Shown in pieces: positions 28,776-29,452 of a stretch of DNA of 29,452 nucleotides. The notes beneath the pieces were generated by a model. It was given only the letters and a program-made list of their open reading frames with translations, did no database searches and was not told where the DNA came from. Each line of letters starts with the position of its first letter. Position 1 is the stretch's first letter. The position numbers and the translations under genes are program-made. Source of the stretch: a virus. Location: IMG/VR virus record IMGVR_UViG_3300044640_000551, positions 1 through 29,452 of that record; one strand, given 5' to 3'.

Positions 28776-29063
28776 ATGACAATACAACAAAAAGACGACT
28801 TAGCGCACATAGTAATGGCAACCATGCAACTGCAAAGCGCAATTCATACCCTAGACAAAGTAACTGGAGAGGGGAACAAGTTTAAGCAACTTAAAAAGAA
28901 AGAGTGGAATCAGTTTATCCACTACGTTCAAAAGTTCACGGCAAAGCATGAAATCGAACTTTACGATTTAACCGCCAAGTTGCCAGAGCAAAGTCAAAAC
29001 TACATTGACTGCGTAAACGAGTTTGATAAAGTAGCGGAAGAAATGAAAGTAATTATACCGTGA
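28776..29063 (+). CDS. Hypothetical helical protein (95 aa)
   Basis: A 95-residue helical protein (MTIQQKDDLAHIVMATMQLQ, then a KKKEWNQFIHYVQKFTAKH segment). It begins one base after the preceding stop and is the last gene before the promoter at 29079. No domain recognised. The repeated long helices suggest a small helical bundle. Coding status supported by context; function unknown. Confidence 0.55.
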   Translation: MTIQQKDDLAHIVMATMQLQSAIHTLDKVTGEGNKFKQLKKKEWNQFIHYVQKFTAKHEIELYDLTAKLPEQSQNYIDCVNEFDKVAEEMKVIIP

Positions 29064-29078
29064 TTAGAAAATAATTTG

Positions 29079-29086
29079 TATATTTG
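29079..29086 (+). promoter_or_regulatory. Promoter for the kissing-loop RNA
   Basis: TATATTTG at 29079-29086 matches TAnnTTTG. The predicted start, about 4-7 bases later, falls on or close to the first paired base of hairpin 1 (29090). No clear -33 TTG or TTTATTAAAA block is seen upstream, so strength is uncertain. Confidence 0.55.
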
Positions 29087-29089
29087 TAT

Positions 29090-29174
29090 CGTTGAGTAGA
29101 CGCAACGTGTAAGGTATTTTATTTGAAAGCCCTGTAATGCGAGGATCGTCTACCCTCAATTTACGGGGCTTTTA
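29090..29174 (+). ncRNA. Two-hairpin structured RNA with complementary loops
   Basis: Hairpin 1 is CGTTG (29090-29094) with CAACG (29103-29107), loop AGTAGACG. Hairpin 2 is AGCCCTGTAA (29128-29137) with TTACGGGGCT (29161-29170, one G-T pair), an internal loop (TGC against AAT), then GAGG (29141-29144) with CCTC (29154-29157) and loop ATCGTCTAC. Loop 1 GTAGACG (29096-29102) is perfectly complementary to loop 2 CGTCTAC (29147-29153): a 7-bp kissing interaction. TTTT at 29170-29173 may end the transcript, making hairpin 2 a terminator. No ORF fits. It may be a stand-alone RNA or a leader controlling the nuclease-like gene at 29200. Confidence 0.6.
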
Positions 29175-29199
29175 TGTTTAACTTAAATAACGGAATGTT

Positions 29200-29452
29200 A
29201 TGGAATTTTTAGAGAAAGATTTGGAAGAAATTATTTACTTATCAGATAGGGATAAGTTAGAAGAAAGAGGCCTTAGCCTAAATGGTAAGCTTAAGAGACA
29301 ATTAAGAATTGGAAATTATGGAGTTGCTGATTTAGTTGAATTTACTAGACCAATATACATAAATGATAATGTTCAATTTAAAGGGGTTATTAATATTTTA
29401 GAGCTAAAAAAAGATAAGATAGGAGTAAGTACATTTTTTCAAGCTTTAAACT
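29200..29452 (+). CDS. PD-(D/E)XK nuclease-like protein (partial, cut by window end)
   Basis: The gene opens at ATG 29200 and runs off the right edge with about 84 codons seen. The product has a helical N-terminus (MEFLEKDLEEIIYLSDR), then GNYGVADLVEF at about 38-48 and INILELKKDKIGVSTFFQAL at about 64-83. The G-x-ADLV aspartate followed by an ELKK strand fits the D-x(n)-(D/E)-x-K metal site of PD-(D/E)XK nucleases, such as NucS- or recombinase-associated nucleases. It may degrade or trim DNA in recombination or defence. It lies 25 bases past the structured RNA. Nuclease fold is moderately supported; role unknown. Confidence 0.6.
   Translation, partial: MEFLEKDLEEIIYLSDRDKLEERGLSLNGKLKRQLRIGNYGVADLVEFTRPIYINDNVQFKGVINILELKKDKIGVSTFFQALN

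Follow-up and report, generated by a model that had tools for sequence, protein, structure and literature searches.

In satellite phage P4, an untranslated leader ahead of the replication genes contains complementary segments and is involved in premature termination (PMC4825925). The CI RNA is processed from the transcript, pairs with the separate segments seqA and seqC, and holds the lysogenic state. The pT181 attenuator acts by transcription attenuation, and its specificity lies in the loop and upper-stem sequence (PMC3753616). In pT181, as in the RNAI/RNAII pair of ColE1, a sense RNA pairs with an antisense RNA of the opposite strand by loop-loop kissing of 6–8 bp, which can extend to longer duplexes. 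The put RNA of phage HK022 is described as forming two hairpins close to the start of an early phage transcript and as influencing termination (PMC9378689), and GOLLD and ROOL are phage-encoded RNAs with covarying loop-loop contacts (PMC12286853).

Here, we describe an RNA family that is absent from Rfam 15, one copy of which lies in the window, i.e., the whole stretch of DNA analysed, a linear virus record of 29,452 bases. To our knowledge, few cis-regulatory RNAs have been described for Bacteroidetes phages, and the control of replication genes in these phages is little known. Judged from its layout and genomic place, the element probably helps to decide whether the replication genes are transcribed.

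The element in the window and its relatives

The genes of the window phage include NinG, NinB, the large terminase and an Erf-like annealing protein. The element and its neighbors are arranged as follows.

28776–29063, + strand: gene of a 95-aa protein upstream of the element, used to find relatives
29079–29086, + strand: predicted promoter −7 box TATATTTG of the Bacteroidetes type, read from the sequence
29090–29107, + strand: hairpin 1, stem CGTTG (29090–29094)/CAACG (29103–29107) and loop AGTAGACG, from the fold and from compensatory stem changes among relatives
29096–29102, + strand: kissing segment 1, GTAGACG, exact complement of 29147–29153, with covariation in relatives
29108–29125, + strand: A/U-rich linker of 18 nt between the hairpins, read from the sequence
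29126–29172, + strand: hairpin 2, terminator-like, from the fold, its base stem covarying in relatives
29126–29137 and 29161–29172, + strand: base stem of hairpin 2, 12 pairs, AAAGCCCTGTAA/TTACGGGGCTTT
29141–29144 and 29154–29157, + strand: apical stem of hairpin 2, 4 pairs, GAGG/CCTC, next to the internal loop TGC/AAT
29147–29153, + strand: kissing segment 2, CGTCTAC, within the apical loop of hairpin 2, complement of segment 1, with covariation
29170–29173, + strand: U-run TTTT at the 3′ base of hairpin 2, partly paired, shorter than in most relatives
29187–29201, + strand: small hairpin AATAACGGAATGTTAT overlapping the start codon, assigned to the nuclease gene and not to the element
29200–29452, + strand: PD-(D/E)XK-like nuclease (family alignment A1), encoded by the first gene after the element and truncated where the contig ends

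The box, the two hairpins and the 7-bp complement between their loops lie where the original prediction had placed them, and no ORF of at least 60 aa overlaps the element, which had been described as free of ORFs. Both hairpins are present in the minimum-energy fold (−29.9 kcal/mol), whose z-score of −2.3 against shuffles gives only moderate support if taken alone. The a priori chance of a 7-nt match between the two loops is about 4e-4, which makes a single copy only suggestive, and it is the relatives that settle the kissing loops. A U-run had been predicted after hairpin 2 and does exist there, in a weak form in this copy and in a longer form in most relatives. Hairpin 2 and the U-run together look like an intrinsic terminator; a simple terminator scan of the window did not list this hairpin because the stem-loop exceeds the length permitted by the scan.

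Nothing in the window scored above the curated thresholds of Rfam 15, as expected from the earlier suggestion that the RNA is probably new, and the element itself reached only chance-level scores (F6, 16.6 bits against a cut-off of 46). A description of the element was not found in the literature covered; an unnamed earlier listing may exist in supplementary tables of candidate RNAs (PMC8040213).

Relatives were reached in IMG/VR through the proteins flanking the window element. In all, about 114 element loci were found, nearly all of them on IMG/VR phage contigs. The same layout with a different sequence is found directly 5′ of most relatives of the nuclease and 3′ of several relatives of the 95-aa protein. 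Strong copies occur once per phage, in the window and in ten contigs of 30–35 kb, and the cultured Cellulophaga phage Nekkels_1 (MT732443) has a divergent copy immediately 5′ of position 48589. When the element DNA was compared with named phages, only short matches were obtained, mostly around the promoter box. A search of IMG/VR with the exact hairpin-1 pattern returned mostly chance matches in coding DNA, together with four true copies (L022, L055, L071, and L076).

Two types of the element, P and Q, were distinguished and aligned separately, because a single MAFFT alignment of all types was poor. An early table of pairwise scaffold identity, which ignored gaps and overstated identity, was discarded. 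The 55 curated elements contain 41 distinct loop sequences with perfect complementarity over 6–10 nt, and their kissing segments are 52.3 ± 3.4 nt apart; since these elements were chosen partly for complementarity, they are not proof of it alone. In seven distant relatives 5′ of the nuclease gene (L128, L164, L176, L180, L135, L139, and L187), hairpin 1 is weaker or absent, and a 5′ segment of about 7–13 nt is complementary to the terminator loop. This form is perhaps an older or looser version of the element.

Covariation and divergence of the loops

The pairing between the loops was examined with a pattern, GTTCNNNCTNACANTATAGAAC, which fixes the stem of hairpin 1 and some of the loop positions and leaves hairpin 2 unconstrained. 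This pattern occurs at 64 distinct places in IMG/VR, and at 60 of them the exact 8-nt complement of the loop lies 51–58 nt downstream, while the other four look like chance matches. As a control, loops borrowed from other elements matched in 0 of 2724 trials. The 39 non-redundant elements among these 60 (alignment A5, Q type) have all kiss cells paired (312/312), with 37 two-sided changes and not a single one-sided change; three of the four positions left open by the pattern vary, by 9, 19 and 9 two-sided changes. Among 13 P-type sequences (A3), 93% of the kiss cells are paired and six of the seven pairs have a two-sided change; the score drops sharply when the structure is slid or shuffled. 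The corresponding Q-type alignment (A4, 13 sequences) has 92–100% paired kiss cells and two-sided change in 6/8 pairs. In both alignments, the hairpin-1 stem and the base stem of hairpin 2 covary as well. Furthermore, model R2, which was built without the kiss, found one copy across 249 Flavobacteriaceae genomes, on a 3.5-kb contig, and this copy has a previously unseen loop pair of 10 bp, AGCCTTCGAC/GTCGAAGGCT.

These four unbiased tests (the GTTCNNNCTNACANTATAGAAC pattern, A5, A3/A4 and R2) agree, and support for the kiss is thus at the limit of what sequence comparison can provide. The covariation check that had been proposed along with the prediction thus turned up compensatory changes in the stems and in both loops, and the view that the loop match is no accident holds, since the relatives keep both hairpins while their loops change together. 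On this comparative evidence, the kissing-loop element is real and not a product of chance. A pattern for the P type was also tried as an unbiased test and given up, as chance matches were too common (9/110 had a loop match among the matches listed). In L131 and L133, both 5′ of the nuclease gene, the loops are exchanged, with CTTCTCAC in hairpin 1 of the former and in hairpin 2 of the latter.

The loops can change within a short time. In L181 and L182, with nuclease DNA that is 98.9% identical, 2 of the 7 kiss pairs are replaced on both sides. The P-type elements differ from each other by 0.54 per site in the kiss, 0.44 in the unpaired linker and 0.19 in the hairpin-1 stem; in the Q type, the kiss varies about as much as the hairpin-2 stem and no more. 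The fast change of the loops could reflect selection for new loop codes, but we read the loop variation as mostly drift under the constraint of pairing.

Such fast divergence would also suit a kiss that is mainly intermolecular, formed by one short RNA with another or with a nascent leader, which would yield dimers or rings, or a self-specific control in trans like plasmid copy control or exclusion between phages with the same loop. The loop complementarity expected of a homo-oligomeric phage RNA (pRNA, GOLLD, and ROOL) is present in the element and would fit a contact in cis as well as one in trans, and a GOLLD contact known from covariation did prove to be intermolecular (PMC12286853). We nevertheless regard this reading as unlikely for the present element, as the spacing is constant near 52 nt, the Q-type kiss does not exceed the hairpin-2 stems in variability, and the pairing between the segments of the curated elements is confined to the loops and does not extend into the stems, unlike that of true antisense pairs. 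Avoidance of shared loops was not seen among phages of one sample either (4/8 pairs share them against 15% overall, the pairs being few), and carriers without a tyrosine integrase would have no lysogen to protect. A little less probable again is a variant in which the loops are a phage-specific code, by which leader RNAs would kiss the same leader of sister genomes and switch the replication operon. If true, this code would give lytic phages an RNA-based self-limitation and an exclusion of relatives with the same code, which would select new codes.

Genomic place and possible roles

A TAnn(T)TTG box (consensus TATATTTGT) lies upstream of 50/55 curated elements, against 19% of shuffled 45-nt stretches, and of 48/60 pattern-found elements. 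A run of at least four T follows hairpin 2 in 59 of the 60 pattern-found elements, and this hairpin is stabler on the + strand in 49/55 curated and 56/60 pattern-found elements. The box and the strand asymmetry of hairpin 2 support an RNA that is read in the direction of the operon. The same observations bear on the idea that the structure acts as DNA, as a replication origin or as a recombination site at a module boundary, with which its location would agree, since the replication module lies there and genes are exchanged at this point. The box and the U-run are kept, hairpin 2 is stabler as + strand RNA, and the wobble pairs of Q-type stems fit the + strand (16 G-U vs. 6 A-C), although those of P-type stems are even (12 vs. 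11), so that a role as DNA is very improbable.

A replication or nin gene lies downstream on the same strand in 82/91 loci, the count being limited to those of the 114 loci with at least 2.5 kb downstream. The first downstream gene is exchangeable and may encode the nuclease, an HNH/NUMOD4 protein, a VapE/BT4734-type or DUF3987 primase, or a DUF6291 protein, besides some 20 further clusters of mostly small proteins. Since this first gene varies, the target would be the operon and not a single gene. The order in Nekkels_1 is the divergent element, nuclease, hypothetical protein and primase/helicase. A link with packaging genes was not found, a terminase being near the element in only 3 loci (median 8.9 kb). 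On gene order, the leader 3′ of the 95-aa gene is a point of module exchange. Six copies of the 95-aa protein (L087, L088, L090, L091, L092, and L094) are 72–98% identical, yet their leaders and first genes differ.

The window contig opens with the NinG gene (1–666), which relatives have about 2.6 kb downstream of the element, from which it follows that the contig has probably been cut within the replication operon of a phage of about 30–35 kb. The element-bearing virus records that were checked contain no tyrosine integrase; among 30 records, tyrosine integrases occurred only in a Maribacter genome bin and in the virus record L178, where no element was seen. The nuclease family had one match in 84,980 host species genomes. 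Based on the missing tyrosine integrase and this single host match, the carriers are most likely lytic.

The nuclease family has an invariant D, E-x-K and Q in alignment A1. The predicted model of a relative, L096 (pLDDT 91), has EndoMS/NucS as its best fold match, with a probability of 0.98 but an E value of 0.008, and a comparison of the sequence with solved structures gave nothing significant. The inverted repeat at the start codon is kept in 22/58 distinct nuclease starts vs. 2/60 Q-type elements and may be a site at which the nuclease regulates its own gene. In the window and in L129, L132, L151, L190 and others, the repeats AATAACGGAATGTTATG, AATACGGAACGTATG and AATACGGAAAGTATG have covarying arms and a constant CGGA.

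In our reading, to which we give a probability of about 0.58, the element is a 5′ leader and transcription attenuator of the replication operon of probably strictly lytic Flavobacteriia phages, in which the kiss tunes termination. As read from the sequence, a predicted promoter, a leader RNA and a predicted terminator hairpin with a U-run come immediately before the operon. The predicted terminator ends 3–5 nt 5′ of the start codon in about 15 nuclease-linked relatives, and in the rest mostly within 26 nt, which leaves no space for a further promoter. The promoter could reach the operon only via hairpin 2, which makes an attenuating leader the best reading of the element. The RNA polymerase would initiate just 5′ of hairpin 1 and produce either a discrete RNA of about 85–95 nt ending at hairpin 2 or a read-through replication mRNA, and the kiss would set the split between the two.

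Transcription passes loop 2 ahead of the 3′ arm of hairpin 2, so that the kiss could form first in cis. The terminator stem would then need to wind within an RNA ring that is already closed, at a time when the polymerase still holds the 3′ strand of this stem; we therefore lean, tentatively and at well below even odds, to a kiss that slows the closing of the terminator and favors read-through. It is somewhat less probable that the kiss stabilizes the terminator instead, and the remaining probability falls to roles outside the operon. A rough estimate of reach on full minimum-energy stems suggests that full hairpins and a cis kiss cannot coexist in many copies; by a crude estimate, the core stems of the window copy with the 18-nt linker could accommodate the kiss. 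A conserved alternative (antiterminator) fold was not found. A conserved leader peptide was considered and rejected: an ATG lies near the hairpin-2 arm in 28/39 Q elements, but its frame and stop are not kept.

The Q type has conserved unpaired sequence in A5, namely ANTATAG in loop 1, of which TATAG in the loop tail was fixed by the pattern search itself, and UUAUU in the linker. Its hairpin 2 has a conserved purine-rich internal loop, with UGAA on the 5′ side and GGA on the 3′ side. The internal loop and ANTATAG could be a site for a protein or a tertiary contact. These sequences, including UUAUU, would also fit a free small RNA that has a promoter and a terminator of its own and exerts its effect outside the operon, e.g., by binding the RNA polymerase or another protein; the kiss would then merely compact the fold, and the place before the replication genes would be a matter of genome packing. 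The discrete promoter-hairpin-terminator unit and the free change of the first gene agree with such an RNA. In many copies, however, the start codon directly follows the terminator, so that the operon needs read-through, and the link to the replication operon is strict. In line with the leader reading, the 7–8-mers of the loops had no extra partners clearly beyond chance in 11 phage genomes. A free RNA has a minor share of our confidence, clearly above that of an intermolecular kiss.

Several functions had been offered with the original prediction. Of these, the leader fits best, but the specific tie to the nuclease gene does not stand; the free regulatory RNA remains a candidate that fits less well, and an RNA antitoxin is unsupported, there being neither repeats nor a constant partner gene.

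The family is compact, easily tested and widespread in IMG/VR, and covariation gives it strong support. Its dozens of loop pairs of 6–10 bp on similar scaffolds are a natural series for studying how a loop contact acts on an intrinsic terminator and might also yield orthogonal RNA parts. Furthermore, the element indicates where the replication operon starts and where exchangeable first genes are inserted, which aids annotation.

Comparison with known systems

The phi29 pRNA is another phage-encoded RNA with covarying loop-loop contacts. It has another shape and a role in packaging, whereas replication and nin genes accompany the element, and GOLLD and ROOL are several times larger than the element. 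We know of no case in which GOLLD, ROOL or pRNA is the terminator leader of a replication operon. The put RNA of HK022 suppresses pausing and termination through the polymerase and has neither a kiss nor a terminator of its own, in contrast to the element, which has a kiss and ends in a terminator-like hairpin.

With pT181 and ColE1, the element shares loop-loop kissing of similar length, and with pT181 also the proposed transcription attenuation. It differs from them in that a single short RNA carries the two loops, on one strand, and the match is restricted to the loops. Like the P4 leader with its CI RNA, it stands as a leader before phage replication genes and has complementary segments, and its proposed output is likewise premature termination. 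A second target site of the P4 type was not found in 11 phage genomes; the element has one pair only, which is a kiss between hairpin loops, the terminator hairpin itself carries one of these loops, and the carriers checked are without a tyrosine integrase. The closest working relatives are the P4 replication leader with its CI RNA and the pT181 attenuator, although defining features of both (a second target and an antisense strand, respectively) are missing here, and the element is best described as a new RNA family, present in more than 100 phage contigs, that belongs to a known kind of device.
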